From positions 947,079 through 1,011,078 of the forward strand of contig WELB01000021.1 in assembly GCA_009602725.1 (NCBI GenBank): a stretch of 64,000 nt of DNA. The letters are read 5' to 3'. Made by a program: the position numbers and the translations under genes. Below the pieces are notes generated by a model. That model was given only the letters and a program-made list of their open reading frames with translations, was not told the origin of the DNA and did no database searches. Below are positions 9,196 to 49,640 of the stretch, piece after piece; the first letter of the stretch is position 1; each line of letters begins with the position of its first letter. The stretch comes from Spirogloea muscicola. Its lineage: Eukaryota > Streptophyta > Zygnematophyceae > Spirogloeales > Spirogloeaceae.

Positions 9196-9737
9196 TCCTA
9201 TGTCCACATTCGGCAATGACCGACCATGCACGTGTCTGCCAAGCTGCCTGGTGCTGGCCGACCAGGCAGATGTCTGTTATACCTGCAAAGAGCTGGAATC
9301 ATCTCACCCAAGCTTCCTGGGCGAACGCGTACCAGGCCTTCAGCTTGCATTCACCGACGCCCAGCTGAGTGACTGCCTGGTGGAAAGGATTGTATTCCCA
9401 AGAGTCCATCAAGCAGGATCAGTGCTTTCAATAGTCATCCCAGATATGAATGTCTACAAGAGCCCCCCTTGGCTGCTGCCAGATCTTGACAATACGTCCG
9501 GCATAATAACTACCTGTTCCACACCGCGTGGCTTGTTGCTACTTAAACTTGCTGTTCATGACAGCCTGCCAGCATGTAGCAAAGGGCACAGCTCTTACCC
9601 TTATAACACCTAACACAAGGCACAAGTAGGGGCCAAAAGTGATGTGTAAGTATATCTCTGCTTTTGTCCTTCAGGCCCTCTTCTACTTGTACCCCAAAAG
9701 ACAGCTTAACCACTGTGTATGTGTGGACACTGGTCGA
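9196..9737 (+). pseudogene. NAC-like locus A, decayed
   Basis: An acceptor-like TTCTACAG ends at 9195, and an open frame from an ATG at 9200 encodes VCYTCKELESSHP, then RVPGLQLAFTDAQL (NAC subdomain A, compare PGFRFHPTDEEL) and DMNVYKSPPWLLP (subdomain B, compare DVYKxEPWDLP). In locus C the exon ends CTGCCAG followed by GT, but here the bases after CTGCCAG are AT (9483-9484), so the donor is lost. Similarity to C continues through the intron to the next acceptor region (CTTCAGGCCC, near 9670), where a LINE fragment cuts in. Subdomains C-E are absent. Probably a pseudogene of a DNA-binding protein. Confidence 0.6.
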
Positions 9738-9890
9738 TGTGTTGACGCAGTCAGCTGTCACCACATCGGCGATGATGCGGGGACCGCCGCCGGGCGGGAT
9801 GGTGACCAGGTCGGTGCGTCGGGTACGGAGCTGGCCGTCCGTACCCAGCTGGATGGGCGTGATTGAGGTATTTTCCACGGCCCCTTTGGA
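9738..9890 (-). mobile_element. RLE LINE fragment (endonuclease domain) in locus A
   Basis: On the minus strand it encodes ENTSITPIQLGTDG, RRTDLVTIPPGGG and IIADVVTADCV, matching the same part of copies at 2500-2640 and 54790-54920. It lacks both the 3' UTR and the upstream domains, so it is an internal fragment rather than an ordinary 5'-truncated insertion. It ends the similarity between NAC-like loci A and C. Confidence 0.7.
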
Positions 9891-10995
9891 AGAGCTGCTT
9901 CTTCATGTAAGAGTCCATATGGTGTCTGTTATGTGCTCTGCATAACAAAAATAACAACAAGCTGTAACAAACAATAGCAAGTGCCATCACTTAAAGCAAC
10001 CGAAGCACCCACATACTAGTAAGCTTGTCTTGCTGGCTTGTCTTGCTTGCTTGCTAAGCGGGCAGAGGTGTTACTTGCAGTAAGTCGATACCTACTCTAG
10101 TTGCATCTCAGAGGGGCTCACGTTGACTTGAACGGAGAGGGGACTGGTAGGCCCGCTCCAGGCCGTGACTTGAGGCCGGGCCCATAAACAGAAGAGTAGC
10201 CGCCATGGCAGCGAGCGCGGCGCCTCGCTGCGGACTTCGCGGCGGCAAGCCCAGAGCAGAGCAGAGCCCCAGGCCGTGCTTGGCCACGGCACGACGTAGG
10301 TCGCCATGTCGAGCGTCATCATCTTCGGCCGTTACTTCCCGCTCCAGCCTCGCCTCCACCAAGGCCGGCTAATTTTTGCAGCTTATTCACCTGCTCCCTC
10401 GCTTCCGCTCCACTTCCTTGCGCTTGCTCCTCACAAGCTCTAGGTCGCGGCTATCAATCCCACGCCCTCAATGTATCTTCCGCACTTGCGCCTGCGACTG
10501 CTCCTGCTCTGTTTTCGCAAGTGTGCCAGGCGAGCACCGATTGTGCCGTCGACTTCTGCCACAGAAAGGGCCGTGACCTGCCACACAACAGCACCAGATG
10601 TGTGGGGGCGCGCGTATTCGACTTCACATCCGCATGGCTTAAATGCTCGCTTCTGGTATGAGCCATGCCTTTGTCCTTGGCTTGCCGCTGGGGTTTTCCA
10701 GTGGGCAACTTCAAGATGGGTGCGGCATAATCTTGCAGGGAGGACATAAGACAGCTTCATTGTTGTACATTGAGAGCTCAATGCTGTACATGTGAGCCAA
10801 GGAGCTTTGGGCTCACAAGTGCGATGGTTCCCATGCGTGAGGCGCCCAGACGGGAACTTGTTTTCAGGCACCCTCTGGAGAGAGGTCCTCGTGGATTGGC
10901 TGCAGCAATGTACACAGCTGACCTGATCAGCTCTACCAGGTCACTGTGGCCCTGTGCGTTGCAGCCTCTGGCTTGCGCACCGGGGTTGCTCTTCC
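9891..10995. other. Mostly unassigned; short repeats and a small open frame
   Basis: 10020-10062 holds imperfect repeats of CTTGTCTTGCTGG/CTTGCTTG. On the plus strand, an ATG at 10205 in a strong context (GCCGCCATGG) opens a 55-codon Ala/Ser/Arg-rich frame that could be a transit-peptide exon, but no donor follows and the stop comes quickly. The segment 10735-10900 is related to 12070-12240. No family is recognised. Confidence 0.25.
10735..10900. repeat. Dispersed repeat, first copy (pair with 12070-12240)
   Basis: Shares the words GCTTTGGGCTCACAA, TGCGATGG/TGCAATGG and TGTGAGGTGCC/CGTGAGGCGCC with 12070-12240 in the same orientation, with clear divergence. It may be an old duplication of a host exon. 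Neither copy has a long conserved frame that I can name. Confidence 0.45.
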
Positions 10996-11150
10996 TCCCC
11001 TCAGCTCATCTGACTTCCTATTGCTGACACGGGGGTACTAAGAGCGCCCTTTTCGCTTAGCCTGTGGCTCCGCCAACATATTTATGTACCCTCTGTATGC
11101 ACCTGGTTTGCTTTCACAGCCACTCCTCTGATAACAGCACCGCATTCTGA
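10996..11150 (+). repeat. Dispersed repeat, first copy (pair with 56130-56280)
   Basis: CAGCTCATCTGACTTCCT, then CTGCTGACA-GGGGTACTAAG, AGCGCC and CCTGGCTGGCTT-like sequence match 56130-56280. The end resembles the SINE hairpin arm (TTTCACAGCCACTC). Probably another tail-bearing SINE type. Confidence 0.5.
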
Positions 11151-12069
11151 GTCGCAAAACACTGCCTAACCCTTGGACCTGAGGCATTCACAGCTGCTGT
11201 GCTGTGGCAGTGTGCCAGGATGCACATTATTTCAGCATGCCGAAACCACTCGCATTCTTGGCGAGCTTTGCCCTGTGAATGTACCTGTGTCATTGCTGCA
11301 GGATGGCCAGTCAACATACTGCAATACTGCTCCAGCATGTCCCATCTTCTCCATTGGCTGCAGCACAGGATGTTGATACAATGCAAGGATCACGCCAAAG
11401 TCAGACTTGCCAGCATTCTGTTGCCCCTCCGCTGCCGCAGCGATATAGTTCCTCCCTCTTGCGCCGAGAAACATGCAGAAGTGCTTGATAGCATCATCAA
11501 TACATGGAGAGGCCATATCATCAGCAATATCTATGTCCCTGTCTAGCATGCACCAGCTAGGTAACATCTGGATGCTCTCTTACAGCAGGTCCTCATGGGT
11601 CAAGCAGAAAGTGCTCAGCCTGCGCTGATCACGCCTTTTGGCTCAATACGAGTACGCGCTTCAGCTGCTGTACCTGCTAGGCAGGTGGTGGATGCTGTTG
11701 AGTGCATGGCGAGTGGGGAAGCTTGAGCTCTCCTCTGCAGGTTCTCAGCAGGTGGTGCGCGCCCACCCCCTGCTCTGCTTGTTGTGCATGGACACGCTCC
11801 CCTCTGCAAGGCCCAGAAGTGGTTCCTAGCAGGCACTGAGATGTGGTTGCAGTGCTGCGGCAAGGGGCCAGCCAAGATTGTAAGAGGTGGGCAAGAGCTG
11901 GGCTGCTTGGGAACCACTGACCTCCAGCTGATCACTATCGCCCATCGAACAAATTGACATGACAGCGTTTCCTGAGCATGACGGGCTGATGAAGCTGGCG
12001 AATCTGGCCTGATGTGCTGAAGCACATAGCAGTATGTCTCTTGGTATTGGAGCTGCTCAGCAAAGATTG
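11151..12069. other. No feature supported
   Basis: Moderate-GC sequence with only short open frames on both strands. I see no domain, tandem repeat or known repeat type here. Confidence 0.3.
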
Positions 12070-12720
12070 GTGCGGCGAAGACCTCAGGTATGAGCATGGA
12101 GAAACTCAGTGCTGTATGTCCAATGGGGCTTTGGGCTCACAAAGTGCAATGGCCCCATGTGTGAGGTGCCTAGACATGAACATGTTGCAGGCTCCTTCTG
12201 GGAGGAAGACCCTCTTGCTCGTCCTCATCTTCATCCATCAACTGCAGCGACTCACAGAGGTGACATTTCTCCACCTGTCATAGTGGCCTTCTGGCCTATT
12301 TCCACATGGCTTACTTTGACGGGCCTGGAGCCTTCATTGCTGCTAACTTGATGGAGCGCTCTGGGATGCTTTTACTGAGGCTGCCAATGCCAAATGCTGA
12401 TCTGCTACACAGGAAGCCAACATGAAGGGCCGCTGCAACAGTGACACCCCGGCCGCTGGGCGCTGCAAAGATGATGTTCTCAGACAAGGTTGATGGACAC
12501 AAGAATGGGCACTAGCAGCAGCGTTTGCAAGCAGCCTCCTATGCATGAGGGAGATTGCATGTATGCATACACATGCACAGAGCACAAAGCAGACCGTGGG
12601 GCATTGCATAAGCAGCGGCTACTAATAATGTGCAGCTGCAGCAGATAAACCACAGCCGCTGGGCGATCTGGCCACCTGGCCAGAGAAGTCAAGGTACACA
12701 GTATGCGATGTAAGTGAAGT
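12070..12720. repeat. Local duplications and fragment related to 52.2 kb
   Basis: Three relationships overlap here. 12070-12240 repeats 10735-10900. 12445-12505 and 12650-12710 are diverged copies of each other (both start GCCGCTGGGCG). 12440-12560 on the plus strand also matches 52270-52380 on the minus strand (GGCGCTGC, TTCTCAGACAAG-TTGATG). That is consistent with an old gene family, here in very short frames only. Confidence 0.4.
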
Positions 12721-13279
12721 ATGCATGTCAACGTGATAGACAAGGACAAGTTGACTTTCTCAGGCTGTCCCAGAAAAGGTGTCAGCCGTGTGCTGCAGGG
12801 TGCAATGGCTGCTTCCACCTACCCTGCAGGCAGGAGCTGCAGTACCTGACAATCAAGGATTCCAGTGAGGTAGCGTGCATGGATCTGGCAGTGACAGTGT
12901 TACAAACGGCACTTTTAAGGATGAGGGGGGTAAGCGCGGACGGTGAGCTGGCGCAAGGTCCGGGCCATGTCATAAGCTTCACTGATAGTAGCGACAACGA
13001 CATGGACAAGGCACAAGTAAGTGCGCACGGGCAAGAATGGTAATGATGGCATGGCGACTATCAACAACAGCCACGTGGGCAGCAGCTTCAAGTGGTGGCA
13101 TCATGTGGGCACTGGCCTGCACTTTCGAATGCCTTCTAGGCACTGCGCGTCTACCTGCCTGCACTGAGCTTCACTACATGGATGCAATGTGAAAGCCCCA
13201 TTCTGGCAACCGCACGGCAATACTCCTGTTTGATTGCCATGTTTCCTCACGCGAGCAGACACCTCGCGCTAAGTACCCC

Positions 13280-13594
13280 TTGCATAACATCTTACTACCA
13301 TCAACAAGCATAGTTTGGCCCTTTCAAGATTGGAGAATCTCTGTACAGCAGCCCTGGGTCGTAGAAATGGCGAGAGCGGGCTTGCCACGGGCTTGCGATG
13401 GTGCCTTGCAAATACTTTGTAACCCTAGGAGCATGCAAAGACATTTTGAAATTTGCAGGTTTGCTCCCTCAATTATTCGCACCAAGGTTGGATGCGTGAC
13501 GAATGACGATGAATTTGGAAGCAGAATAGCAGGCCTATGGCTGGAGACATTTGGAGCCGTGCCGCATTCACTTGAGTACTTGCCATATTCGTAG
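13280..13594 (+). CDS. Exon-like open frame, unknown
   Basis: An uninterrupted frame of about 100 codons without an obvious start codon at its head, encoding a mixed-composition peptide with a Cys/His-containing patch (LCNPRSMQRHFEIC). The spacing does not fit a standard C2H2 finger. It stops shortly before an A-rich stretch. It could be a terminal exon or chance. No neighbour supports a role, and I do not recognise the family. Confidence 0.2.
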   Translation: MHNILLPSTSIVWPFQDWRISVQQPWVVEMARAGLPRACDGALQILCNPRSMQRHFEICRFAPSIIRTKVGCVTNDDEFGSRIAGLWLETFGAVPHSLEYLPYS

Positions 13595-13885
13595 TGCAAC
13601 AAAAAAATCAAATGGCTGTGCAATATGAGCGTGTGTGCACGGCTTCTTCTGTGCCCATTAGCAAGGCTGCGGACAGGCTATTCAGAGACGTGAATCTCAA
13701 TCTCGAGAAAGTGAACAGGCACAAAAGCTCGGTAGCTAAAACAAACTAATTTTTGCTTACTCAGACTTGCCTTCTTACAGAGACTGTCTTCTACACTGCA
13801 GCAGGCTTGGAGAGCCTCTTAAGATTGGGCATGGGACAAGCCGTATGACATCGCAGGTCTAAAGCTCAGCAGGGGTAGGGTTGCT

Positions 13886-15585: not shown

Positions 15586-16781
15586 TCATGAATCTTCAGC
15601 TGGTTGCAGAGCTGTGTGCAAGATTTTGCATGAGCCCTTGAACAACAGGACCCTAACTGGATTATTTGTCTCATTGCAGAACTTAAACCCACCATCTTGG
15701 CAGATGAGGGACAATCTTACCTCCCCAGCATCATGTTCCTGATGATGCTGCATCTCCTGGAACACCTTGCAGAGTGCTACAGTGAGCTGCACAGCCAAAT
15801 TGGTATACATTGTTGAGAGGGTCAGCCTAGCTTGGTGACCAGCATGCATCACAAGATAGAAGATGCTGCAAGATGCTGGGCACCACAGAGCAATACATAT
15901 GATACACTAGTATCTGAGGTGCTGGCTTGAAAAAGCCATGACCACGCACAGTGATGTATTTGTAGTCGATTTCTTGCATAGAACTCAGGGACTCATCTAA
16001 TGGGCACTCATAGCAGTGAAGACCTACATCAGGTGCATGATGCCCTTCAATCCCAGGCCTCCACACGATGTACTGCACCATCATCCACTCTGTTTCGATG
16101 GCACCTTGCCATCCATGAAAGTATCGATAGTTGATCCTCCTTCCAATGAGTTCATTCTCGTCGTTGACAATGTCCTGCATATTATTATCAAATCTCCATC
16201 TGCCAATATTACCCCCAAAAGGACCCCGTGGGCCAACCCTCCTGTCAATGTTGTTGCCTCCTGGTGTTATCCTCAAGGGGCTGAAGACATGCCAGGGAGG
16301 GTCCCTGTTGTGTGGAGGACCTGTTTTTCAAATAAGGTAGCTATGTCCTTGTCAGTCACGAGACTTGCCATCAAATGTGTGCAATCAAGGGGCCACAAGC
16401 AAAAACCATCTAGCAGGCTTCCTGGCCACACATGCATGTTGAGCACATGCACTTTGTGGGATCAAAGATCTCTGCCAGTCTCTTTGGAGTGAGCCAGCAC
16501 TGCACAGTGAATGAAAGCAACAGGTTGCACACAACTGGCTGCTTAAGTCCTGTTCAATTTCAACAATCAATGCAGACACCCTGAAGAAACGCATGCAGAA
16601 TATAAAGTTGCGCGACACCGACAATGTCCCCAAGATTCGCAGGCTCCCGGGCCTGCACATCAACCTCAGGTACCAACCTAGTCTCCTCCTCAGTTAGCTG
16701 CTCACGGTTGTCATTCCTTCTTCTCAAGAGATAGATAGCCTCGACATCTGTCAGTTCAAACCGTAAATTATGGGCCATCAA
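15586..16781 (-). CDS. NAC-like locus F (three exons visible)
   Basis: On the minus strand, exon 1 (to about 16628) encodes NLRFELTDVEAIYLL (subdomain A, compare FRFHPTDEEL) and LVPEVDVQAREPANL (subdomain B). Exon 2 starts after TTGAAAAACAG at 16320 and encodes PPWHVFSPLR (compare EWYFFSPR), GRWRFDNN (compare GYWKATG) and TEWMMVQYIVW (compare WVMHEYRL). Exon 3 (about 15846-15730) encodes AVQLTVALCKVF and ends at a strong GTAAGA donor. With exon 2 read in phase 1, as in locus E, the join falls at GGGG (16628), but the next bases are AC where E has GT. Either another donor is used or the gene is dead. Frames inside exons 1 and 2 are open. The likely role is a plant-type transcription factor, but a divergent one. 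Confidence 0.6.
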
Positions 16782-21931: not shown

Positions 21932-22790
21932 TGTGGTTGTAGACATCCAGCAATGACCAAGCAGACAGAAGATTGCGACCTTTGCAAACTGCTGGGCAAG
22001 GGCAAGCGCATACCAGGCCATATGCTTGACTCAAGTCACGAAGAGCTATTGTACACCTGGCTCAAAGACTTGGGTGCCCAAGAGGCCCCCAAGTAGAATC
22101 AGATCCTTCGCTACTCACTCCATACATCCCAACTAAGAATGTCTACAAATGCCCCCCATGGAAATTGCCAGGTCTTGGCATCAAAGCTACTCTCTGGTGC
22201 TCATCACATGGCTTCGACTTGCTACTCACAATCTGCTGCCCGCATTTAGTCATGTCACTATCTTCCAGTCACACCACTTACTTGTGCCTTGCCACTCAGC
22301 AAGAGCACTACTTACTTACGCTCTCACATATACTTACGCTCTCACATATCTTCTTCTCCCAAGTCAGGCCCTTCTCCTTATCTACAAACGTCCTCTAGTC
22401 TTACCACTATTTGGTGTGAGCAGTTATTCAGTGTGCTTGTGTCTGCCTCCTCAATCCTATCCTTCTCATGCAAACGATCTGGCCTGGACATGCGCAGCAA
22501 AAAATGTCAAGGAGATCATGCCTTCTACTACCTTAGTCCTTCTCCTCCCTCAAAGTGGAAAGATGATAGCCGACGAGGAGACCAATGTGATCGCGTTGCA
22601 GGAGTTGGCAGATGGAGAGGAGGAAGAACACCACCAGAGGTAGAGTCTGGTGGAGTGAAAGGCATAAGAGCGACCTTCAAAGTACTTGACAAAAGGAAGT
22701 CCCCACAGTAATCAGACAATGCATGGAGGCAAAGGAGCTTGGATGCTTAAAACCTGGACAATGATTGAGTATGAGTTGACAAGCAGTGAT
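21932..22790 (+). pseudogene. NAC-like locus B, NAC exons, decayed
   Basis: Exon 1 (21932-22171) follows an acceptor-like CACTTCCGCAG and ends with the donor TGCCAG/GTCTTGG, as in locus C. It keeps DLCK, RIPGHML and the codons of subdomain B (GTCTACAAATGCCCCCC) but not one continuous frame. Exon 2 (from 22498) encodes GDHAFYYLSPSPPSKW (subdomain C), GVGRWRGGRTPPEV and, in another frame, KTWTMIEYELTS (subdomain E, compare WVMHEYRL). Joining exon 1 to exon 2 at the sites used in C leaves exon 2 one base out of phase. This is best read as a decayed copy of a NAC-like transcription factor gene. Confidence 0.6.
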
Positions 22791-28714: not shown

Positions 28715-29567
28715 GTGTGGTCAAAGAGAGCCTACTATGACCTACCAGGCGGATGTTTGCCAAATCTGCAAAGAGCTGCAGTCGTCCCACCCACTCTTTC
28801 AAGGCCAACGCGTCCCAGGCCTTCAGCTTGTATTCAGCGATGCACAGCTGCTTGAGTACCTGGCTGATAGCCCAAGCATCCGAGGATCTGTGCTTTCGCT
28901 TCTCATCCCGTTTAAGGATGTCTACAAGTGCCCCCCTTGGCTGCTGCCAGGTCTCGGTGACACACGACTACAGATGCTGTCTGTTGCTAATTGCATGGCT
29001 GCACTCGCGGTTCACATCTGCATGGCAGCATGTAGTCCTTGGCATTGCTATTTTTACCGCAGCATTTGCTTGTGCAAAGGCACTACTCATGCAACAAACT
29101 GCTTCTCCATGTCTCAGGCCCGTTGTCCCCGACTCACCCCAAATTTCTACTTTGTCACTGCTTTTCAACATGGGTAGTAATTCAGTGTCCCTGTTTCTCC
29201 TCTCAAGCAAATCATCTGGCTTTGGAATGTGCAGCCAAAGACTGTCGAGGCGATCATCCCTTCTACTACTTCAGCCCTTCTCCAACCTCAAAGTGGCACA
29301 ACAGCATCGGGCGAGCAAATGACTCGGATCGCTCTGCAGGAGGCGGCCGCTGGAAAAACACGGGAGGAACACCAGCTAAGGTGCAGTCTGCTGGAGTGAC
29401 AGGCACAAGAAGGACCTACAAGTACTTGTTGGAAGGGGTTGCCCAGAGTGATCACTCGATGCATGCATGGAAGGCGTACGACTGGACGATGTATGAGTAT
29501 GAGTTGACGAGCAAATACATGCAGGGAAGGCAGTCAGCATCACATGGTGTATGTACCTTCCCATCCC
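28715..29567 (+). CDS. NAC-like locus C, two NAC exons, most intact copy
   Basis: Exon 1 (28715-28950) follows a pyrimidine-rich tract and CCAG. From ATG 28737 it encodes VCQICKELQSSHP, then RVPGLQLVFSDAQLLEYL (subdomain A, compare PGFRFHPTDEELVxYL) and FKDVYKCPPWLLP (subdomain B, compare DVYKxEPWDLP). The donor is CTGCCAG/GTCTCG. Exon 2 starts after GTGCAG at 29235, in frame (phase 1). It encodes HPFYYFSPS (compare EWYFFSP), GGGRWKNTGG (compare GYWKATG), TRRTYKYLL and YDWTMYEYELTS (compare WVMHEYRL), ending near a GTGTATGT donor about 29567. Order, spacing and an intron after subdomain B fit plant NAC genes. The likely role is a nuclear DNA-binding regulator, with later exons downstream. Confidence 0.68.
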
Positions 29568-31545
29568 ATGCTCGATCCTCATGCTAAAATTCTGTGCAAA
29601 ACAGGAGCTCATGTCTTGGTTTGCAGTGCACAGATGCATCACTCCTCTGCTTGCATTCCCCTTGAGCCACTGGCTCAACCTTCTCCACACAGAGCCCTCA
29701 TGCCCATGAACGTTCATTTCGATTGGTACTTCTTTACCTCGATTGTGTCAAAAATGAGGCTCAGGAATGACAATTTTGCATTGTGGACCCAGTGAGCACC
29801 GTGCTTGAACTACTATCACTGCTAGTGCTACATGGTTATACTGTCTCGTCAGAAGCTTACTGGCTACAGCTACAATCATGTGGGGCCCTGTTGGTGAATT
29901 ACAGGCTGATATTATCCTGTACAAATTTTGTGCAAAGAAAGCCCAGCCTTCCCTGGACAAGTGGCAGGCAAGGTGCAGTCATGACCGCACGCTTGGGTCG
30001 ATTTTGACACCTTCAAAGCACCTGGCCAATGCACAAGGCGAAGATCATGTATCAGGCAAAAGGGGACCAGATGGAAACTCGAAGCGCAGACCGTTGCATG
30101 CAGTCTCACAGCGAGCCTACTCAGATGGGTATGCTGAAAGTCGCCTGCTAGATGAAGAAATGCCTGCACATCAGTACCAGGACTTGGTAAGCCATGTACT
30201 TCACATTCAAGCTGAAGAGCTCTGCAAGTGTTTCAATTGTCGTCTCGTTGTCAGCATGCTTTGCACAGTACCTTTCTTTTCAGCACCATAACTATTAACA
30301 AACCACTAGCTGACCATCTGTAGCTGCGGGCGCCAGATGTGCATTACAGCGCTTGCTGAAATACCAAGGCCTTGATGTCATCAAGTACATGAATAGAGTG
30401 TTGATTTATCAGTGCAAGTGCAGGAGCTATATGTGGATCTACGTCCAAAATTAATACCAGAATCTGAAAGTTTATACCTGAAATCCTGTATGGCTTGTAA
30501 TAGCAGGGCCAAGATGCCTCGTCTCCAACGAGGTCTCAAACGACACCAATTGCTGTCTGTGAAGAAGAGGATGTCAAAGAGAGCGCAGCAGACAATATTG
30601 AGCATACATGGCCAACTGCATCCACTGCTAGCTTTAGCACAGAGGTCAGGGCCTTGCCCTGCGAACTCCGTCCATTGAGATTGCCATCTTGTTCATACTT
30701 CAATCTGAGCTTATTGTTGTTGAATTTGCCTTTGCTTAAGTACAAGCCACCTCTGGGCCTCTACTCGATCTGTTGTTGACATCTAAGAAGGAGGTGCTGT
30801 CTAGGACAGACCTTCCAAGGTCTGGCTGTATGTCACCCTTATCAGTGTGTGTCATAAGCACCGCAAGTCACAGAAAGTAATGTTACAAGTTGCTACTAGC
30901 AAGTCAGCAGCAGAGCACGCATGCAGCTCCTGCTCTTTGTACGTGCTAAAAGCAGTCTGCACCTTATGTCATGCTTTTGAAGGTGACGGTATGCAAATTC
31001 TGGAACACTTGCCAGGGGCAAAGTATTCAGGAGGACCATGCAGCCCATTTACTTGAGACGACTCCTGGTGTCAACATTGCACCACAGGTATACCTGAACT
31101 AGTTTCAGCATAAGTAGCATGCTTCTGAAAGCACAGAATGTATCATGTCATATTGGATATATCGTCTAGTACACTGTTTTGGCCCGCACTTTGTAAGTTT
31201 GTCCTAGCTGGTTGAGGCTAAAAGCAAGTGTGCACTCTGAATGTGCACAGTCACACATAAGTGGCAGAAGGAGCATCAAGTTACCCACTTGTGACTTTCA
31301 AGCCCAAGTAACAGTCAATGAGCAGGTTAGATTGACACTGATTTGGCCTCTAAGTCTGGAGGTAATTGTCAACATTTTGCAGGATGCAAGCAGAGATTTT
31401 GCAGAAGGTGTTGACAAGTTTGCTGGTGGTGAAGAATATGGTGGTGGTGCGAAGTATACCAGTGAAGGTTGGGATTTCATCTTATCAACTGACTATGGCG
31501 GCTTGACCAACATTTGGCCTGATTACACATCAGAGCTATAAGGTC
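29568..31545 (+). CDS. NAC-like locus C, downstream exon region, product unknown
   Basis: This region keeps blocks shared with locus B. One candidate exon runs from after GTGAATTACAG (29904) to GACTTG/GTAAGCC (30187). It is open throughout and encodes ADIILYKFCAKK and a basic Lys/Arg-rich middle (VSGKRGPDGNSKRR). Another open stretch at 30480-30676 encodes a basic peptide (KMPRLQRGLKRH). A third at about 31290-31541 encodes AQVTVNEQVRLTL and an acidic, glycine-rich end, closing in a stop. Exon boundaries beyond the first are unproven. The C-terminal half of plant NAC proteins is usually variable, so lack of a domain is not surprising. Confidence 0.4.
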
Positions 31546-36254: not shown

Positions 36255-37066
36255 TCATGTGAGAGGCTGTGACTTTTGATACGGAGAAGTGAAGGCCAAG
36301 AAATACCTCACGGTATACTGATGATGCAGTTTCGTGTTAGGTTTGTCTGAAGGGGCCCTGCCTTCAAGCACCAAGTCCACGGGTTCATCCTCGTCACTTT
36401 GGTACATATATGTGCGCTCAAGGACATGCTCATCAGCAAGTTTTATCAACCTAATTCTCAGACGCTTCCGCCTGCCATTTCTTGCCTGCATGACTAGAGA
36501 GCTCTGTGTCTTTGCATTGAGCATAGAAGTATCTGTCATGCAGCAATCTGCACCGTCTGCCTGTGAAGAAACATGTTTCAATGTAGCTGACAATATGGGT
36601 CAGTCAATCAAGCTTGCTGTCCTCTTTTCGATAATAGATACTGCTCCAGGCACGAGCTTGAGGCACATCCGTTCTAATCTCTAGTGACTCTTGTCAGAGG
36701 AAACATTCCTGGCAGGGCTTCTTTGGAAGGACACAGAGCCTAAGCTACGCAGCTCCAGGCAGACTCTGATGCATAGGTACAGACTTGCAGATCGATATTG
36801 GAGCCCCTCACCAAGCACCACCAGTAGCATGGCTGCATGTCTACTCTTGAGTTCATCGAATTTTAACTTGTCAGATCCCATGGTTCAATCCCAAAGACGG
36901 CCTTGTCAGAAATGAGCATCTTCTCTTGTTCTGTGAGCTTCCCTGCTGACCGAGCTTTCAGGTAATGCATTACCAAGTCTTCGTCTGTGGGAACGAATTG
37001 GAGGCCCACAACTCGACGGTCTGCACAAAACCAAAGGGTCACATCCTGCTCGGGCCACAGCTTCAC
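36255..37066 (-). pseudogene. NAC-like locus G, probably decayed
   Basis: On the minus strand, after the acceptor-like TTGGTTTTGTGCAG (near 37021), the frame encodes RRVVGLQFVPTDEDLVMHYL, the closest match in the window to canonical NAC subdomain A (PGFRFHPTDEELVMHYL). KAVFGIEPWDL then matches subdomain B (FEPWDLP). About 300 bp on, after TTTCTTCACAG (near 36564), DRYFYAQCKD and GKKWQAE resemble subdomain C. In another frame, DLVLEGRAPSDKPNTKL then HHQYTV match the LVFYxGRAPxGxKTxW-MHEY region. The frame change in the second exon, and no GT directly after the usual splice point, suggest a pseudogene. The match to NAC is the strongest argument for the family call across the window. Confidence 0.6.
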
Positions 37067-37609
37067 TGTGTAGTTCCACAGTGACTTTTGAAAGACAAAG
37101 TAGAATCCTTGCTAACTGCCTTGAGGACAAGAGTAGGGAACGTGGCTTTAAGCAAGAGACTGGGTGGAGTGCCTGTGCTCGCTGGACTTGTGCTTCCATG
37201 CGTGTGCTGATGTACACCATACATGCATTAACTTACTGACTCTATCACAATGACTGGACAACGAGTGGCCCAATACCTTCTCTCCCAAGTCTTTTGCGGG
37301 TGTGTGCAAAGTACCTGATGTGGTCTCCTCTTTGTGCAGTATGCGAGACGGGAATGAGTGGCCCAAGACCGTCATTGGAGAGTCCTGCATTAATCGTTCA
37401 CCTTTCAGATGTTCCAGATGTTGCAGACATTCTGGTCAAAGGCTGCTGGTGGCAACCGGCACACAGCAGGACTGGAATTAAAGGGACCGGTACTAGTTGA
37501 GCTGACGCGTGCAGAGCACAAAGAAAGCCTATGCTTGCATGTACAGCATGTGGCTCCAACAGGTAGTCAGTAGGTTTGGGGTGTACCATAACAGCAGGGA
37601 GTGCTGAGC
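37067..37609. other. No feature supported
   Basis: Possible upstream part of locus G on the minus strand. Open frames of 70-105 codons occur on the minus strand but show no motif. Confidence 0.25.
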
Positions 37610-38600: not shown

Positions 38601-38950
38601 TGTCAATCGCGGTTCCACAATGGCGCGATAGCCGATTCCTCACGCAAGCGGACCTCCCAGATGGACGCATTTTGCTCGTTCACACTGAGAGTGATACTTG
38701 TGCACAGCAGGACCTGAAATATTAATTCCAGTATATTTTCACAGACAAGATCCAGATTTTCCATAAGTGAGGTTTGACACCTGAAGGTCAAGCGACATAT
38801 GGAAATTCAGCAAGGTCATTGATATTGGCAACCTGAGGCAAGCAACTTTGTCAAGAAACTTTGATCGATAGGAAGCTTGTCTGGCAGTCAAGCCCTTCAT
38901 GCCATGCTTCTGACACCTGAAGGCCTAAAGAACCTTGATGCTTTTTTGCC

Positions 38951-40020
38951 ACTTGCACACCCCTATCCAATGACACATAGTAAGCCCAGAACTGCCCACT
39001 TGTGAAACATATAGGAACGTGAAGCATTGTAAACGAGAGCTAGATTGTTGTGGCTACAAGTTTCAAGCCAATGAGAAAAGATTGCTGCAGTCAACGTCTT
39101 TCTGTACTTACAAGGATGCCTCACATAGAACAAAGGCGCACTGCATGGTATTACGCAAGTATTAAGCCAGAGCCAAGGCTGCCCCTGCTCGAGTGCCAGA
39201 GGCCCATCTCTTTCTAAGTCACTCAGTGTCGAGTAATTTCCATATGCAATAACGAGATCGACGAGCAGTAAGATGCCATTTGCGAACTGTTCGTCCAAGG
39301 TGCCCAAACATTCATGAATGGTAAGTTGTCGCTCTTTGATGACATGGTCATAGTAGCCGTAGCAAGTAATACGTTCGTTAAAGAGGCTTTGCTCCAGGCT
39401 CCTCTCATGAGGCTCTGCACATGGCAAGGCTTGCACTGATAGTGAGAGGCCTGCAATATCCTCAGCTATCTGCTGGGGACTGCACAAAATGTCCGAGCAA
39501 CCGACTGAACACCTAAGTAGCGTTTGTAGAGTGCAAACACAGAATCTCAGGAGCACCTCTCTTGTGCAGCATCTCCAGCAACTCCACCACAAAAGGCGTC
39601 ATTGATATACCTGCATGAGGATGATTAACACCATTCACAGCAACATGCCGCCATGATGGGTCCTGCCGTTGCAGAGCAGCACGCCACCTATCCCGATGGC
39701 CAAGGAGTCTTCTTATAAGGTCGCCCTGAAAAGCAGATGATCCTCTCTCTCACCAGACTCTCCCACCAAGTGTCGCCGAAAGAAGTAGCTTCCTGTTGAA
39801 TTTGACAGGCTGATAGGCTTTGGCCCTGCAGTGCCGCGCTGGCTCGCATCCGAACCACTCGAACGGCCACGCGACTGACCCTATACCAGCGCACCTGCAT
39901 CAGGTCTGCTGCAAATCTTGTTTGCGGCAGTGACTTTCGCTGTTGCACCATCCATCCTTGCACGACCTTCAGTCTGTCTTCTGAATCTCCTGGACTGTAG
40001 ATCCTTGATGCTTATTTCCC
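38951..40020 (-). pseudogene. Tandem-duplicated unknown gene, unit 1
   Basis: Direct tandem unit of about 1070 bp paired with 40021-41090. On the minus strand three exon-like blocks survive in both units: WYRVSR and ALQGQSLS followed by TSFGDTWWESLVR (about 39930-39770), DRWRAALQ then NHPHAGISMTPFVVELL (about 39690-39550), and IAEDIAGLSLSVQALPC with CYGYYDHVIKERQLT (about 39475-39310). The blocks lie in different frames with no clear splice sites, so this may be a degraded copy or a spliced gene whose introns I cannot see. Family unknown. Confidence 0.4.
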
Positions 40021-41090
40021 ACTTGCCCTCCCCTATCCAATGACTACCAAAGGAAGCCCAGAACAGCCCACTCGTGAAGCATATAGGAACGTGAAGCATC
40101 TTGCACGAGAGCTAGCTTGTTGTGGCTACAACCTACAAGCCAGTGAGAAAAATTGCATTAAGACGACAAAGGTCTGTACTTACGAAGATGCCTCACATAG
40201 AACACAGGCGCATTGCAAGTAATAGGCCAGAGTCAAGGCTGCCCCTGCTCGAGATGCCAGAGAATCATCTCCTCCTAAATCACGCAGTGTCGGTTAATCC
40301 CCACATACGATGACGAGATCGACGAGCAGTAGGATGCCATTTGCAAACTATTCCTCCGAGGCCCAAATATCCATAAACGGTAAGTTGTCGCTCTTCGATG
40401 ACATGATCATAGTAGCCGTAGCAAGTAACACGTTTATCCAAGAGGCTTTGCTCTAGGCTCCTCTCATGAGACTTTGCGCATGGCAAGGCTTGCACTGATG
40501 GTGAGAAGCCTGCAATATCCTCAGCTATCACTGGGAACTGCACACAGTGTCTAAGCAACCGACTGAGCACCTAAGTAGCGTTTGTAGAGTGCAAGCACAG
40601 AATTTCAGGAGTACCTCCCTTGTGCACCAGGTCCTGCAACTTCACTACAAAGGGCGTCATTGATTTAGCTGCATGAGGATGACTTGTACCAATTACAGCA
40701 GCATGCCACCATGATGGGCTGCTCTGCAACCTGCGGTTGCAAAGCAGCACGCCACCTATCCCCATGGCCAAGGAGTTTAGTTAAAAGGTCGCCCTGAAGC
40801 GAATGATCGTTTCTCACCAGACTCTCCAACCAAGTGTCGCTGAAGGAAGAAGCTTCCTGTTGAACTTGAAAGTCTGATAGGCTTTGGCCCTGCAGAGCCG
40901 TGTTGGATCGCGACCAAACCACTCGATTGGCCGTGCGACTGACCCTATACCAGTGCTCCTGCATCAGGTCTGCTGCAACTCCTCTTTGCGGCAATGATAT
41001 TCTTTGTGGCACAATCTCTCCTTGCGCGAGCTTTAGTCCGTCTTCTGGTCTCCTGAACTCTATGCATCACCTTCAAACCAGAGGATAAGA
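40021..41090 (-). pseudogene. Tandem-duplicated unknown gene, unit 2
   Basis: Same three blocks as unit 1, with many substitutions: WYRVSRTANRVVW, ALQGQSLSDFQ and SSFSDTWLESLVR (about 41000-40810), GDLLTKLLGHGDRWRAAL (about 40810-40740) with SHPHAAKSMTPFVVKL in the next frame, and VIAEDIAGFSPSVQALPC with CYGYYDHVIEERQLT (about 40530-40380). Here the first two blocks are joined in one frame over the segment that changes frame in unit 1, so unit 2 is locally the better copy. Conservation of amino acids at blocks separated by noisy sequence argues for past selection. Confidence 0.4.
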
Positions 41091-42146: not shown

Positions 42147-43992
42147 TCATTTGTTGCAGATAAGGTCAATGAGAGCGTGGCGCTCTCGTGCCATGGCATC
42201 CTTTGCGAGAAATGGCAACGAATAAGGGAAGCGCTCATTTCCGATGTCATAATTCTTTGGGCTGAAGAAGCACCGAAGCGTTGCAACTCTCTTCAGCTGT
42301 TCAAGCTTGCCGCTCTTGTCCAGGGTCATGAATTCCTGCAAGTCTGGCGCAATCTCAATGTCGAAGCTTTCGACGCTCTCCATCACACTTGCTTCTAGCT
42401 TTAGTACAAGATCTTCAGCCATGCAGTAATGGGCATGTGCAATAACCTCATCACCAGCTGGTGTTTGTCTGCAGAAATGAACGCAGCATTAGCTTAAAAG
42501 GCATACGCACAAACAAGGGCTGATCATTGATATGCACAAAGACGAGCTGACCATGGTTGCATACACGTAAAGCAAACCTTGTGACGTTCATCGAAAACTT
42601 TTGACAAGCACGCTGACACAGTACGTGCACAGTCTTGACTGCGAAGCTCGCATGTGCATTGCTCGATGCAAATCGCAATCAGAACATTGGCCAGACCACC
42701 AGAGGAAAACCTTACCCAGGTTCTTTCCATATACTTCCTATCCAAGAGTCCATCTTAGGCAGAATGAAAACACACTGCATGCTTCGTCGAAGACGGTAGG
42801 TCAGAGCCAAGGGCTCCCCGTGGATCTCCTCGGCTCTGCAATTGGCTGTAAGGAACATAATGACGAGGTCTGCTGCCAAAATTTTGCCACTGGCGAAGTT
42901 GGTCCTGACGGTTCCAGCGCTATCGGTGAGCACTATTTTTTTGGCGTCGATGAAGTAATCGTGATCTGCTGTGGTTCCTACACCGCTGGGGCATGTCCGA
43001 AGCGCATCCGTTTCCTCATCCACTGCAGTTGTATGCATTCACGCCTGAACGATGAGTAGGAGGCCTGACTACTCATTACTGTACTTCACACCGTCTGCGT
43101 CGGACAGCTGATTCCACCATCAATTGCTTTTGGCTAGTCGCATGCTACAGTTCACCCCGTGACTAACCATTACCTATGTAGTGGAGCTCCTCCAGCATCT
43201 GACGGACAAAGGTTGTCTTCCCAAGGCCTGAAGTTCCAATTACAACCACATGACGCCAGGTCAGATCGCAAGGTGGCAAAGCAGCACGCAGACGGGTCTG
43301 CAGGTCCTGCAGAGCTGCCAGGGGCAGTGAAAGGTGGCTCTTTTGGGCTACTGCCTTCTTCCATTTGCTGCGTGCCTCTTTCGCCTGGCCTTCTGCCACT
43401 TGTACTTGCTGATGATAGAGGGTCAATGTTTCTTGCATGTCCTTGGCCTTCTGAGCTGCCTCATCACTCGCTCTCTGGAGATCGATTGCTGCGTCCCGCA
43501 ACTCCTTGTCATGCTGGGCCCACATCTCCGCTGATGCTGCTGCTGCTGCCCGACTTTGTTCTTCCCGTATCTTGTCATTGCGCTTTTGTTCCTCCTCTAA
43601 GGCAGCGCACGCCTTGATTGCCTCCTCCTGCAGTGCTCGAAGCTGCACATGAATGTCGAAGTAGTGAGCCACAGCCACTGTCCGTAAATGGCTGGTGAGG
43701 AGGCGTGGCCTCGAGGACCTCTGGATATGGGTGTCGGAAGATAATCGATGCAAGTAGCAACTGTCCTTAATCAAGACACGCAGCACATCATGGCCATGAG
43801 TGAATTGGACAGCATGCCATAAGTTATTGTACAAGCTGTTAGCGCAAGCAGTTATCCCTGGCAAAGGCAGTCATGGGTAATCGTGCTCTTACCCACAGCA
43901 AAATGATCGATGGCTGTCCACCACCCCGGGAACCAAACTAGGCCATGAGAGAGCAGGTCCAAAGTCTCTCGATCGAGTACCACCGCTTGCGA
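42147..43992 (-). CDS. Coiled-coil P-loop GTPase-like protein, four exons
   Basis: Minus strand. Exon a (about 43990-43893) encodes TLDLLSHGLVWFPGWWTAI. Exon b (43857-43174) encodes a long Glu/Lys/Ala-rich coiled coil (LRALQEEAIKACAALEEEQ onwards) ending in VVVIGTSGLGKTTF, a G1/Walker A loop. Exon c (43022-42716) encodes KKIVLTDSAG (G3, DxxG) and VFILPKMDSW (a KxD-type G4). Exon d (42468-42147) encodes PAGDEVIAHAHYCMAEDL and ends at TGA. Introns 43023-43173 (GTAATG...GCAG) and 42469-42715 (GTAAGG...GCAG) keep the frame exactly. The a/b join implies a 35-nt intron. G1-G3-G4 spacing fits a TRAFAC GTPase, but I cannot assign a subfamily. The start codon lies upstream and is unresolved. No stop interrupts exons b-d. 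Confidence 0.7.
43858..43892 (-). other. Candidate 35-nt intron
   Basis: GTAAGAGCAC at 43892-43883 and TTTGCCAG ending at 43858 bound 35 nt whose removal joins DHFAV to GITACANSLYNN in frame. 35 is not a multiple of three, so retention would shift the frame. It may equally mark a wrongly joined pair of exons. Confidence 0.35.
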
Positions 43993-45085: not shown

Positions 45086-45099
45086 TCCGAGCCGCCAAA

Positions 45100-45535: not shown

Positions 45536-45579
45536 AAGCGTCAGGCAACCCAGGCAGTCCGCGAATTCACGGGAAAGAG

Positions 45580-46100
45580 GAGAATGACTCTTCCAGCAGA
45601 GGCGATCGCTGGTTGGCCAGCCCAGAAAGAAAAGAAACCACAGGCTCGCGACTCCGTTGCAGCAGTCGGGGTGCGCCGCGTGGCGGCTCCAGGACGAGCG
45701 GCTCAGCACCGCAACGCCCCGTGCAGTCAACGGCGGTGGGCGGGCCCACCCCTCCCCCTCCCTCCCCCCCCANCCGGCAATGAGCCCCTGCGGCCTTGGT
45801 CACCGAGTCGTGTTCTGTTTACCCGGGCCACCTCGAGCAGCTGCGGCCACGTCCCGGCAAGCTCGTCGGGTCCTTGAGCTCCTCCCACGGGCAGTGCACA
45901 GCTGGCGAGTGTCTGAAGCTGGGGTCATTCCGAAGGGACTGGTACCTCTTCCGCATCTGCAGGCCAGGCGACGGCCGGTCCCCTGACCGCTCGGAGTGGC
46001 AGATGAGGAGCTCACGCTCTTTATTGGGCGGGCTTTCGGGGAAGTCAACTGGCGCCCCACACTCTCCTTGTCCTGCCAACTGAGCTGAACCAGGTAACTG
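45580..46100 (+). other. SINE tail remnant, then GC-rich 5' region of locus D
   Basis: 45585-45635 is a minus-strand tail (GACTCTTCCAGCAGAGGCGA, TTGGCCAGCCCAG). 45640-45920 is GC-rich and includes GCGTGGCGGCTCCAG, also present at 62951, and one undetermined base at 45773 in a poly-C stretch. This may be the promoter region of locus D. Confidence 0.35.
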
Positions 46101-46664
46101 TGTCCCTCTCTGTTGGCTCAGGACATTTTGCCACAGTCGATAGCCGAAAGGACCAACTCTGACCAACATCACACAAGTTACTAAGTGATAGGGCCACGAC
46201 CTTTACAACATCAGTGGACGAGATCACATCGAAAGTGTGCCTATTGCCTTGTATTGACACCATCCAACAAGAGTATTGGCATCACCATCTCCCTGCTTTG
46301 GTCATTCACTCCTCACAATTCGAGTGGCAATGGATCATGCTTGTTTGACTATCTCTTCATGAGGTGAATTCAACCCGCTCATCTGACTGCAAGAGGCAAG
46401 GTTACATTGAAAACGCTCCTGATATGCCAGTCACTCTCACTAGCCGGAATTCTAATGGCCGGGTAGTTACTCCAGAATGCTCAGGACCAACTTGACAGGA
46501 TGGACAGAGTCGCCTGATTGCAAGAGGCACTGGCTGGCTGGGGTTGTTACGGTCCTTGACAAAGTTTGGCAGATGCATTATGTGTTGCAGATGCAGGCTG
46601 AGGCAGGCCAAAGACAACCATTGGAGTGCCTGCTCTGCGATGTCTTGCAGGAACGCTTTGACAA
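46101..46664 (+). other. Upstream part of NAC-like locus D
   Basis: An open frame from about 46477 runs without a stop into the NAC-like exon, encoding VLDKVWQMHYVLQMQAE and LECLLCDVLQERFDNIEVP. An intron end within this stretch is possible (GTCTTGCAG at about 46650). The region before 46470 shows nothing recognisable. Confidence 0.3.
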
Positions 46665-47431
46665 CATAGAGGTACCTATGGAAGGATCGTGGGTGTGGAA
46701 GCTTATTCTCGAGCCCAATGACTCGGAGATTATCGGAGTCCTTCGCAGAAGATCCACGAGCACGCTCACCCTTAATGAGAGAAGGCTGTTTCCGGGAAAA
46801 AATGTGCATGATCGGCACCCTAGAGAAATTGGATGCATTGGAGGCATGTGCAGTCACACCACACATGCACACGTGCACATTGACACTGGTAGGAACTCTC
46901 CACTGGGCTGTGGGACACCTCAGAGCACGGAAGCCATGGAAGGATAGCTTGTTATTGTGTAAGGTTGTGGGAACAACCTGGCTCATAACAAATTGTCCGT
47001 AAGAATTGCAAGTGCTAAATTGTACATATGTATGTAAGCTAGGAAGCCTACAACCAGGTGCTGCTTGTCTCTACCCCCTAGACCGGATCAATCTTCCTGA
47101 CACTTCTGACAAGTGCACAGTATGACTCGAATGAGGCCGTGAAACAGGTCGCTGGTGCAACGGGGGCCACGTCTGGTACTTGTTCAGCCCACTCAGTACC
47201 AACATGCAAAAAGGAAAAGTAGAAGTTGAAAGAACAGTTTGAACGATTGGGGATTGGAAGCAAGACGGAGCCAGTATTGCAGTAATTGACAACAATAAGG
47301 TGGTGATTGGGAGGAAGACTTTTCACACATTCGGATTCGCTAAAACAATACACACAAGATGGAAGTTGGTGCAGTATGTTAAGGTGGAGGTCACCATCGA
47401 GGGTCAGCAAGATTATGTACCTTCTTGCTAA
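46665..47431 (+). CDS. NAC-like locus D, two NAC exons
   Basis: Exon 1 encodes SWVWKLILEPNDSEIIGVLRR (subdomain A, compare LTFEPTDVEAI in E and FRFHPTDEEL in plants) and LFPGKNVHDRHPREIG (subdomain B). The site where E splices reads GGAG/GCATGT here, a GC-type donor near 46843. The second exon (about 47150-47431) encodes WYLFSPLSTNM (compare EWYFFSPR), IGDWKQDGAS (compare GYWKATG), VVIGRKTFHTFG and TRWKLVQYVKVE (compare WVMHEYRL), then a stop after DYVPSC. One in-frame stop lies between YLFSPL and GDWK, so the copy may be dead. It is the same type as loci E and F. Probable transcription-factor origin. Confidence 0.55.
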
Positions 47432-48060
47432 ATTGCTTTTAGGCATTTGACTGGATTGTTGACATACTGTCAATCTAAAACCTCAAAAAGTATTAACAGT
47501 CTGTCCACATGCTGGTTAACTCAAGCACCAGCAAAGTAAATGCAGTATCTCAGAAAGTATATGCTGTACGTATGGTGCACAGCGTCCTTGAAAATGTGAT
47601 GCATGTGATGCATGTGGTGGTGATTGGCTGACCAAGGCTCTCCACATTGTCTACAATCTCCACTGCGCAGCTCACCACAGCATTCTGCAAGGTCTTCGAG
47701 AGGACAGAGAATGCGACCGAAAGGACTGAGCAAGCCCAACCACATCGTCTAGAAAGCTTGATGCCCAGACCAAGCCATGTTGGAGCAGAGTCAACGCAAG
47801 CAGCCACACAGTGTGTCAACAAGGCAGCAAGTAAAGGGAAAGCTGCATGTTGAGGAAGCAGCTGCGTGATCAGACGTGGACTTGGTGAGCCAGTTACTTT
47901 ACTGCAGCTAAACGTCTCTGGACGTGCTTGCAGGTCTCCTGTTTAATGCAAGCTGTGTCCAGGTCTTCGCTCCACTTGATGCAGCCAATAAAAGATTGAA
48001 AAGCTGCAGGAAGCGTCTGTAGCTGCGGGCGCTGATGTGTGTGTTCGGCTCTTGAAAGTT
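47432..48060 (+). pseudogene. NAC-like locus D, downstream exon region
   Basis: STISTAQLTTAFCKVFERTE (47646-47705) corresponds to AVQLTVALCKVF in locus F and TVQLTLALCKVF in locus E. Further on, GTGGACTTG/GTGAGCC (47876-47891) and GCGTCTGTAGCTGCGGGCGC (48013-48032) match loci B and C. This one locus therefore carries landmarks of both NAC-like subfamilies. Product unknown. Confidence 0.45.
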
Positions 48061-48719
48061 TCACAAATACCCGATAGTGTATCTTTTCTTGCATTTGCCT
48101 TCTCTCGGATGTCTTACATAAGCTTGTACAAGGTTTCTGCCTTTCTGGTAGCTAGATATTTGATGGTACAGCACTGACATCTACAAAGGAGTTGTTGTCT
48201 AAAAACCAGGACACTGTGCTTATGGGTGTTTCTATGACTCCCGATGGCAGTGTCGCACCTAAGGTACTCTATCCACATTGCTTGAGCAACAAAGTGAGAG
48301 AATCTTATATGCACAAGCCCAACTATGTACAGCCCGACTATGTACATGTCTATCCACTGTCTTGGCCCATGCTTTAGAGGTGCTATCTGGCGGGTCTTTG
48401 GTCTGTCAGGTTGTATTGAGATTGGTTATCACCCGCAAAGTACAGACAAGTGGCAGGATGAGTACTAAGCATCATGCAAGCTCAACTGACGATCTAAGAA
48501 GCAGAATCAACCTTACAGCAGAACCTGGCTACTAAGTCGGTGCTGAAGTTTGCACATGCAGGTTCCAAGTAGAGAACCTTCAGGAGTTGATGGGGCTCAC
48601 AGCAATGAAGATGAGGAAAGGAAAAACATATCAAAGCTAACAAAACCTCAGCACCTGTACTTTCTTCAATATCATAGTACCTTGCTACAGATTGAAGACT
48701 GACTGACTTGCGTCAAATA
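48061..48719. other. Between loci D and E, no feature supported
   Basis: Low-copy DNA. An open frame of 85 codons at 48278-48535 (plus) is unrecognised. Confidence 0.25.
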
Positions 48720-49640
48720 GTTGGCCGAACATCATCTCTACAACTATTGCGGATGTCTCGCTTGTTGCAGGTGCAGCCAGAGTCAGAAACAGCCTTATGG
48801 CCCAGATATGGAGTCCCTGCGCTGCCACCATGTTTATCCAGGCCTTCAACGAAACGTGGCCAACAGTGGGATACCTCTGGGTAGCTCGTGGAGACTCACG
48901 TTTGAACCCACTGATGTTGAGGCAATATTTTACTGAGGAGAAAAGTTGACCCGCACGCACAGCTTACTGTGGAGGAGATGGCGTTGATTCCCCAGGTAGA
49001 TGTTCATGCCGGAGAGCCTGCAAACATTGGAGGTATGCACAGTGTCCTTCCGCGAGAATCAACCAGTTGAATCTCCTGTGCTGCTGTTAGAGTACTGACC
49101 AATAATGCGTAGCGTATTCTCTCAAAGACCTTGCAGTGCTGGCTCATATAAGTACTGACCTTGACCCCCACAAGTTGATGAGTCAGGGATGATAGGTGCC
49201 TGCTATCAAGAACATAGTGCTTTGTCCCCATTTGTAGCACAGCTTTCAACATCAACTTTGTGACTGACAAGAAACATCATGCTCGATGACAAACAGGTCA
49301 GGATTGTCTTGGGGGCCATCCCTGGCATGTCTTCAGCCCTTTGAGGAGTACAGAAGGAGGCGACTTTGGCTGGATGTTGGGTAAGACAGGGAGATGGATG
49401 GATCAGGACGATTCGTTTTATCTTATTCTTGACCACGAGCATAAAAACATTGGGAGTAGGAGCAGTCTTCAGTACTACAATGGACAGCACTTGACAAATT
49501 GGAGGATGTGGCAGTACGTTGTGTGGAGGCCAGGTTGGAACGGATGTTCTGAAGCAGATGTAGGTCTCAGCTGCTCTGAAATGCCTACGACAATGACCGC
49601 CTCCTTGCCGAGTATGCATGGACATTACAACAGCCTCATT
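48720..49640 (+). CDS. NAC-like locus E, two NAC exons
   Basis: After the acceptor-like TTGTTGCAG (48770), exon 1 encodes SSWRLTFEPTDVEAIFY (subdomain A, compare FRFHPTDEEL). A one-base frame change follows, then LIPQVDVHAGEPANIG (subdomain B). The donor is GGAG/GTATGC at 49033. Exon 2 starts after ACAAACAG at 49297, in phase 1 with exon 1. It encodes HPWHVFSPLRST (compare EWYFFSPR), KTGRWMDQDDS (compare GYWKATG), NIGSRSSLQYYNG and WRMWQYVVWRPG (compare WVMHEYRL). The intron site equals that of locus C. The single frame change in subdomain A means either a young pseudogene or an assembly error. Likely a divergent NAC-type regulator. Confidence 0.6.

Follow-up and report, generated by a model that had tools for sequence, protein, structure and literature searches.

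A local array of seven divergent, mostly broken NAC-like loci with one plausible DNA-binding member in an algal-looking genome

Analysis of a stretch of 64,000 nucleotides of contig WELB01000021.1 (the whole stretch is hereafter the window) revealed seven loci of one protein family between 9.2 and 49.9 kb, within about 40 kb. Judged from their sequences, all seven (A to G) are homologues of the NAC/NAM proteins of plants. They keep the NAC subdomain order and land-plant-like intron phases, fall into two subfamilies and a singleton, mostly show a high ratio of nonsynonymous to synonymous substitution (dN/dS), and five of the seven are damaged. We consider that they probably form a local birth-and-death array of NAC (NAM/ATAF/CUC) genes with one plausible DNA-binding member, locus C. 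The NAC family itself is known; what is new is a divergent and decaying NAC array.

A sequence-only reading of this DNA had already described seven divergent NAC-like loci, and the positions and strands that it gave were borne out for all seven. All of the loci are present, but five are damaged and the D/F/G branch has a third exon; to speak of seven genes would be an overstatement because of this damage. That reading did not mention the broken state of most loci or the loss of the DNA-contact residues from one branch; its view of the cluster as algal is plausible. A rescan of 2156 six-frame peptides of the window, with exon profiles built from the loci themselves, recovered the seven loci and no eighth one (best other matches 2.4 and 4.5; values given in this way are E-values), and the same exon profiles gave a best match of 0.19 on five shuffled windows. 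Pairwise searches group loci A, B and C (9.2, 21.9 and 28.7 kb, all plus strand) and loci D, F and G (16 kb, minus strand; 47 and 49 kb, plus strand), and leave locus E (36.3-37.1 kb, minus strand) as a singleton. The exons are as follows, a slash within a donor or acceptor sequence marking the splice point.

Locus A exon 1, 9200..9487, plus strand: CxxC extension, subdomains A and B, end PPWLLP; NAM match 0.062.
Locus D exon 1, 16619..16778, minus strand: MAHNLRFELTDVEA...EVDVQAREPANLG; phase-1 donor at 16619 or 16628; spliced D matches NAM at 1.5e-11.
Locus D exon 2, 16028..16320, minus strand: PWHVFSP...GRWRFDNN...EWMMVQYIV; 293 bp; phase-0 donor GAT/GTAGGT.
Locus D exon 3, 15721..15786, minus strand: LTVALCKVFQEM; aligned by HMMER to the plant DDWVLCRIYKK segment.
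Locus B exon 1, 21953..22179, plus strand: frame-broken.
Locus B exon 2, 22484..22784, plus strand: frame-broken; CQGDHAFYYLSP, DRVAGVGRWRGG, and WTMIEYEL in another frame; pieced B matches NAM at 1.2e-10.
Locus C exon 1, 28737..28950, plus strand: CxxC extension, VPGLQLVFSDAQL, DVYKCPPWLLP; 214 bp; phase-1 donor CAG/GTCTCG; intact.
Locus C exon 2 to stop, 29235..29587, plus strand: CRGDHPFYYFSP, DRSAGGGRWKNTGG, GTRRTYKYLLEG, WTMYEYEL; acceptor 29235 or 29208, both in frame; intact.
Locus E exon 1, 36868..37111, minus strand: VVGLQFVPTDEDLVMHYL...FGIEPWDLT; phase-1 donor CAA/GTTAAA.
Locus E exon 2, 36258..36560, minus strand: CRLLHDRYFYAQ...KKWQAEA, followed in another frame by LVLEGRAPSDKP; one frame break.
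Locus F exon 1, 46624..46852, plus strand: CxxC at ECLLCDVL; LILEPNDSEIIGVLRRR; weak phase-1 donor.
Locus F exon 2, 47148..47416, plus strand: CNGGHVWYLFSP...GDWKQDG...RWKLVQYV; 269 bp; one in-frame stop.
Locus F exon 3 (start), 47671 to about 47705, plus strand: LTTAFCKVFE.
Locus G exon 1, 48880..49032 (start approximate), plus strand: LTFEPTDVEAIF, LLRRKVDPHAQLT...QVDVHAGEPANIG; one frame break.
Locus G exon 2, 49297..49559, plus strand: CLGGHPWHVFSP...GRWMDQDD...WRMWQYVV; 263 bp; phase-0 donor GAT/GTAGGT.
Locus G exon 3, 49802 to about 49860, plus strand: LTLALCKVFDGTQH.

No exon 2 was found for locus A, where a GT donor at the family position is absent by eye. A reverse-transcriptase-like fragment lies beside this locus at 9741-9881.

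The assignment to the NAC family was examined with raw open reading frames (ORFs) and with pieced models. Nine stop-to-stop ORFs were scanned against Pfam, with the raw ORFs of E and of F exon 2 outside this set. The unspliced ORF of C exon 2 (29036-29587, plus strand) matches NAM (PF02365) at 1.7e-7 and 32.2 bits, over the family cut-off of 27 bits; for exon 2 of D (6.7e-4) and of G (2.4e-3) and for exon 1 of A (0.053; the same ORF also matches GREB1_C at 0.079) the NAM match stays under it, and the two raw ORFs of B, that of F exon 1 and the frame at 29809-30291 have no Pfam match. When the exons were joined by eye, with an X at each break, and searched at E-values up to 1, NAM was the sole Pfam family for all seven models. 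Six of them pass the cut-off with 39-54 bits (C 4.3e-14, G 4.9e-13, D 1.5e-11, B 1.2e-10, F 3.7e-10, E 1.2e-9), and A lies below it at 14.2 bits. The NAM matches that the earlier reading had expected for joined C, E and F are present, the models of E and F carrying an X where they are broken. The refuting outcome that it had named, no NAM match for C and G, did not occur, since joined G, also with an X, matches as well. NCBIfam, a prokaryote library, gave nothing for the seven models.

A profile made from the seven loci of the window only was then compared with 177,635 PDB sequences. The four best matches are all NAC proteins, namely ANAC019 (two sequences), ANAC092 and rice NAC1, at 1.9e-15 to 4.7e-14, the fifth match being at 0.14. 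In chain A of 1ut4, the HMMER alignment spans residues 19-169, with the WVLCRIYKK end included, and shows the subdomains in the order A to E that had been claimed from the sequence; this order holds for the family, but locus A has subdomains A and B only. A phmmer search of PDB with the unspliced C ORF gave no NAC and two chance matches, so that the family profile alone found NAC proteins. Within the window, a profile of D, F and G only, made with no plant data, reaches C exon 2 at 1.1e-5, and locus C is 21-27% identical to D, E, F and G in the alignment of the seven.

Because the exon joins had been chosen by eye, a blind-join control was made, in which a profile of two solved plant NACs was run against 6799 models (6 curated ones, 6493 made by blindly joining neighbouring ORFs, and 300 shuffles). 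Four of the curated models stand out (C 1.5e-9, E 5.9e-7, B 2.3e-6, G 5.2e-5); those of F (0.019) and D (0.069) are weak with this thin two-sequence profile. Among the best 30 of 160 rows at E-values up to 100, every blind join includes an ORF from one of the loci E, C and B, the first blind join without locus E stands at 1.3, and no shuffle occurs. Chance motif matching was rejected on the window rescan and on this control.

Other origins were also considered. A viral one was rejected as C exon 2, D exon 2 and E exon 1 have no relative among viral contigs, in a scan that reaches close relatives only. A prokaryotic one was rejected on a scan of genome contigs with the same reach, which gave nothing for C exon 2 and two bacterial matches for E exon 1; in one (L001) the translation shares only the word WFCADRRV and has a stop within the match, and the other (L002) covers 16 residues. 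Phages gave no match to the DNA of locus C. We give next to no credence to the idea that the loci encode another domain with a similar sheet, of WRKY-GCM1 type or borne by a transposon. NAC and WRKY proteins have a common DNA-reading beta-sheet edge (PMC11121595) and the area is rich in mobile-element debris; however, the pieced models match NAM down to 4e-14 and no WRKY or GCM profile at E-values up to 1, only NAC structures are found at significant E-values, the introns are of NAC type, and no transposase match occurs among the scanned ORFs near the loci.

The intron positions also back the NAC reading. On the sequence, the NAC exon structure with intron phases 1 and 0 is present for both introns in D and G, likely in F, and for intron 1 in C and E; a search by eye for intron 2 of E did not identify one. 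Intron 1 is of phase 1 and lies directly behind the equivalent of EPWDLP in C, D, E and G, the donor of F being weak. In C, the donor CAG/GTCTCG comes after ...DVYKCPPWLLP, and the acceptors at 29208 and 29235 both keep the frame, which makes intron 1 one of phase 1. Intron 2 is of phase 0 in D and G, which have the common donor GAT/GTAGGT after the MHEYRL equivalent, and a donor at the aligned place in F makes phase 0 probable there. Loci D, F and G also have a common acceptor, TGYGCAG/CTCAC, leading into LTVALCKVF, LTLALCKVF or LTTAFCKVF; HMMER lays this third exon, which reaches 15721 in D, about 47705 in F and about 49860 in G, on the DDWVLCRIYKK end of the plant domain. In plant NACs, judging from exon lengths in maize, the first intron probably falls exactly after EPWDLP. 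The exons of the array measure 214 bp (C) and 160 bp (D) for exon 1, and 293 bp (D), 269 bp (F) and 263 bp (G) for exon 2; most maize NAC subfamilies have intron phases 1 and 0, with 140-230 bp for exon 1 and 230-340 bp for exon 2 (PMC4219692).

The residues involved in DNA contact and dimerization separate the loci. In ANAC019, Arg88 is required for DNA binding, and R19 and E26 form the dimer salt bridge (PMC10482968). Locus C keeps this Arg in an ungapped match of the window-profile alignment, NRVAGSGYWKATG against ANAC019 DRSAGGGRWKNTG; within its DRSAGGGRWKNTGG the Arg stands seven residues ahead of the Trp, as in ANAC019, and the core reads WKNTG. No other locus has the contact Arg and a WKxTG core together, A being without exon 2. 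The relic B has kept the Arg (DRVAGVGRWRGG) with a core WRGGR, and neither feature is found in D (GPFGGNIGRWRFDNN), G (GRWMDQDD), F (GDWKQDG) and E (GKKWQAEA). At the salt-bridge positions D has kept both residues (Arg, Glu), B, F and G that of E26 only, A has Gln at both, and E has Gln and Asp.

Since the DNA-contact residues are kept in C and lost in D, we think that C, if expressed, is a predicted DNA-binding factor of NAC type, and D an altered or non-binding relative. C would be a working transcription factor with a NAC-type twisted beta sheet, which may bind DNA via the Arg at ANAC019 position 88 and the WKNTG edge strand and may regulate genes as plant NACs do. With its contact residues lost and both dimer residues kept, D, if expressed, would be less likely to act as an ordinary activator than as a partner that does not bind DNA or binds it with altered specificity. 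It is unlikely that proteins of the D/F/G type at large act as non-DNA-binding NAC partners, in dominant-negative dimers with DNA-binding members such as C. D fits such a role with both salt-bridge residues (PMC10482968) and neither Arg88 nor WKATG, and F and G are without the contact motif as well; yet G and F have kept only the Glu and are broken, and C has neither salt-bridge residue.

The loci are in different states of decay. C and D are open. Among the other five loci, A consists of exon 1 alone, the frame of B is broken in both its exons, a single frame break occurs in E and in G, and a single in-frame stop interrupts F; these five are most likely pseudogenes. A collinear duplication (21.0-24.6 and 27.7-30.9 kb) contains B and C; D and G belong to an inverted one that reaches past the NAC exons, in patches 65-69% identical (14909-15200/50361-50656 and 12423-12841/51989-52373). 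The block 14909-15200/50361-50656 seems to be non-coding, its indels being out of frame. According to the birth-and-death reading, segmental and inverted duplication would have multiplied NAC loci locally, with copies that diverge and die fast.

Substitution rates were estimated with a Nei-Gojobori script and are rough, because each comparison holds 18 to 79 codons. The dN/dS is about 0.45 for exon 1 of C and A, 0.72 for exon 2 of C and B, and 0.62, 0.17 (34 codons) and 0.38 for exons 2, 1 and 3 of D and G, respectively; dS is modest in four of the five comparisons (0.44-0.64) and 1.65 in the fifth. Values of 0.45-0.72 in three of five comparisons agree with the fast divergence claimed by the sequence-only reading. 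Exon 1 of C and A is 0.79 identical versus 0.47-0.51 for introns and flanks, with in-frame indels only; exon 1 of G and D is 0.67 identical versus 0.47-0.55 for the upstream flank and intron 1; and exon 2 of C and B is mildly better conserved than its surroundings (0.69 versus 0.51-0.61).

Several observations count against a NAC array with a DNA-binding member C. The splice sites come from visual inspection and homology; as judged by eye, intron 2 of C misfits phase 0, and exon 3 of C is uncertain. The ORF of C exon 1 alone has no Pfam match, and a profile of B and C only reaches E exon 1 at 0.0078 and pieces of D, F and G at 0.15 or worse. C has Gln at both salt-bridge positions. AlphaFold predicts strands for exon 2 alone, in poor models with a mean pLDDT of 49.4 (C) and 64.1 (D). 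The best match of the C model among 350,542 PDB chains is the NAC domain of ANAC019 (4dul), at a non-significant E-value of 0.2 and a TM-score of 0.24, and no NAC occurs in the best 50 of 458 PDB matches of the D model. Exon 1 of C and B is barely better conserved (0.62) than its surroundings (0.51-0.61), and exon 2 of D and G (0.64) is level with intron 2 (0.66), which weakens the case for constraint. Finally, E, F and G have one break each, which may be an assembly error.

This last point, taken to its end, would make all seven loci working genes, the breaks in E, F and G being errors of long-read assembly. We see little chance of this: one break apiece in an otherwise open domain would suit it, but B has several breaks, A has lost exon 2, and the tandem copies of a neighbouring P-loop family look equally decayed, so that decay is general in the area. 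More serious, although still doubtful, is that the array is a graveyard of seven functionless relics, in which C and D just have no visible break yet. Damage in five of seven loci, the dN/dS of 0.72 (C/B exon 2) and 0.62 (D/G exon 2), a D/G exon 2 conserved no better than its intron and transposon fragments nearby would all agree with it. It accounts less well for C and D being open with usable splice sites, for the Arg and WKxTG kept in C, for the dN/dS of about 0.17 in D/G exon 1, and for that of about 0.45 in C/A exon 1 with its in-frame indels only. A birth-and-death array in which C may still work as a DNA-binding protein is the reading that we prefer.

Some of the loci have cysteines and histidines at fixed places. 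Loci A, B, C and F have a CxxC motif just ahead of subdomain A, and B, C, E, F and G have a CxxxH motif ahead of the strand of subdomain C (FYYFSP), where ANAC019 reads LFGEK. Of the six loci that have an exon 2, three (B, C and F) carry both motifs, and D carries neither. These residues are a possible, putative metal site, which we take as a lead only. It would be a long shot to see here a green-algal zinc-stapled NAC lineage, with a metal site unknown in plant NACs whose halves were lost together in D, and with labour split between C (DNA contact without the salt bridge) and D (dimer residues without DNA contact), in an algal group said to lack NACs.

The window has a eukaryotic character, with GT-AG intron genes, a copia-type gag and reverse-transcriptase debris. 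Its mean G+C is about 0.54, and it contains no Rfam match at the gathering score and no tRNA. A P-loop gene at 42150-43870 (minus strand), with a coiled-coil-like lead VVVIGTSGLGKTTFVRQML and with VLTDSAGT and ILPKMD in later exons, resembles a GTPase or a STAND-type NTPase, its Pfam P-loop matches being weak and under the cut-offs. Frame-broken relatives of this gene make up a 1-kb head-to-tail duplication, 83% identical, at 38929-41062, and decay like the NAC loci. A single open frame at 5483-6982 (minus strand) carries Retrotran_gag_2 (copia-type, 1e-19) followed by RVT_1 (0.02, under the cut-off), and is apparently two elements joined. Many short related repeats, mostly at both ends of the window, flank the NAC array; a dispersed repeat, 90% identical, is found at 1571-2017 and 54231-54675, and a 41-bp unit is repeated three times in tandem at 3913-4031, near the repeat-rich left end. 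Towards the other end are a proline-rich open frame of 472 amino acids at 59731-61149 (plus strand), with a single C2H2-like finger just under the Pfam cut-off (1.8e-4), and a weak DDE_1 transposase match at 57723-58103 (minus strand; 0.015, under the cut-off).

The array bears on the origin of an important family of plant regulators, because it keeps the intron layout of land-plant NACs. If our reading is true, the three-exon NAC gene is old and the family is open to fast turnover in an alga. NACs may also be undercounted in algae, because lone exons score near or below the cut-offs (those of D, G and A under Pfam's). The weight of the finding depends on the species: it would be routine in a zygnematophyte or in Klebsormidium, and a surprise in a Mesostigma-like alga or a chlorophyte. 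The 1KP paper places the origin of NACs in early streptophytes, after their split from chlorophytes (PMC6872490), and two reviews state that NACs are absent in unicellular green algae (PMC11121595, PMC10651149). NAC is not mentioned in the transcription factor section on Mesostigma (PMC6947507), nor was it found in the main text of the Mesostigma and Chlorokybus genome paper (PMC7027972). No report of an algal NAC array was found in searches of an open-access library, supplementary tables not covered.

Among known systems, the NACs of Klebsormidium nitens (PMC9675596) likewise represent the family outside land plants; compared by description only, the available text on them does not describe an array of such density. 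The loci resemble the land-plant NACs (ANAC019, rice SNAC1 and ANAC092; PF02365) in the order of the subdomains (A-E), in their profile matches, in having the maize-like intron phases 1 and 0, and, in locus C, in Arg88 with a WKxTG core. They differ from them by weaker core motifs, by the lack of the DNA-contact motif in D, E, F and G, and by the CxxC extension and CxxxH of several loci. The barley resistance protein Rph7, divergent and NAC-like, also has a NAC-like domain that is recognisable despite the loss of a DNA-contact Arg and comes from a locus of unusual sequence divergence, but it carries a zinc-finger BED domain at its C-terminus and its role in disease resistance has been tested, neither of which is known for the array (PMC10482968). 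In poplar, 12 NAC clusters of 2-3 neighbouring genes have been described, six pairs of which fulfil the authors' criteria (PMC3017804). Local duplication followed by divergence is common to these clusters and to the array, which in contrast comprises seven loci in 40 kb, mostly broken, in an algal-looking genome.

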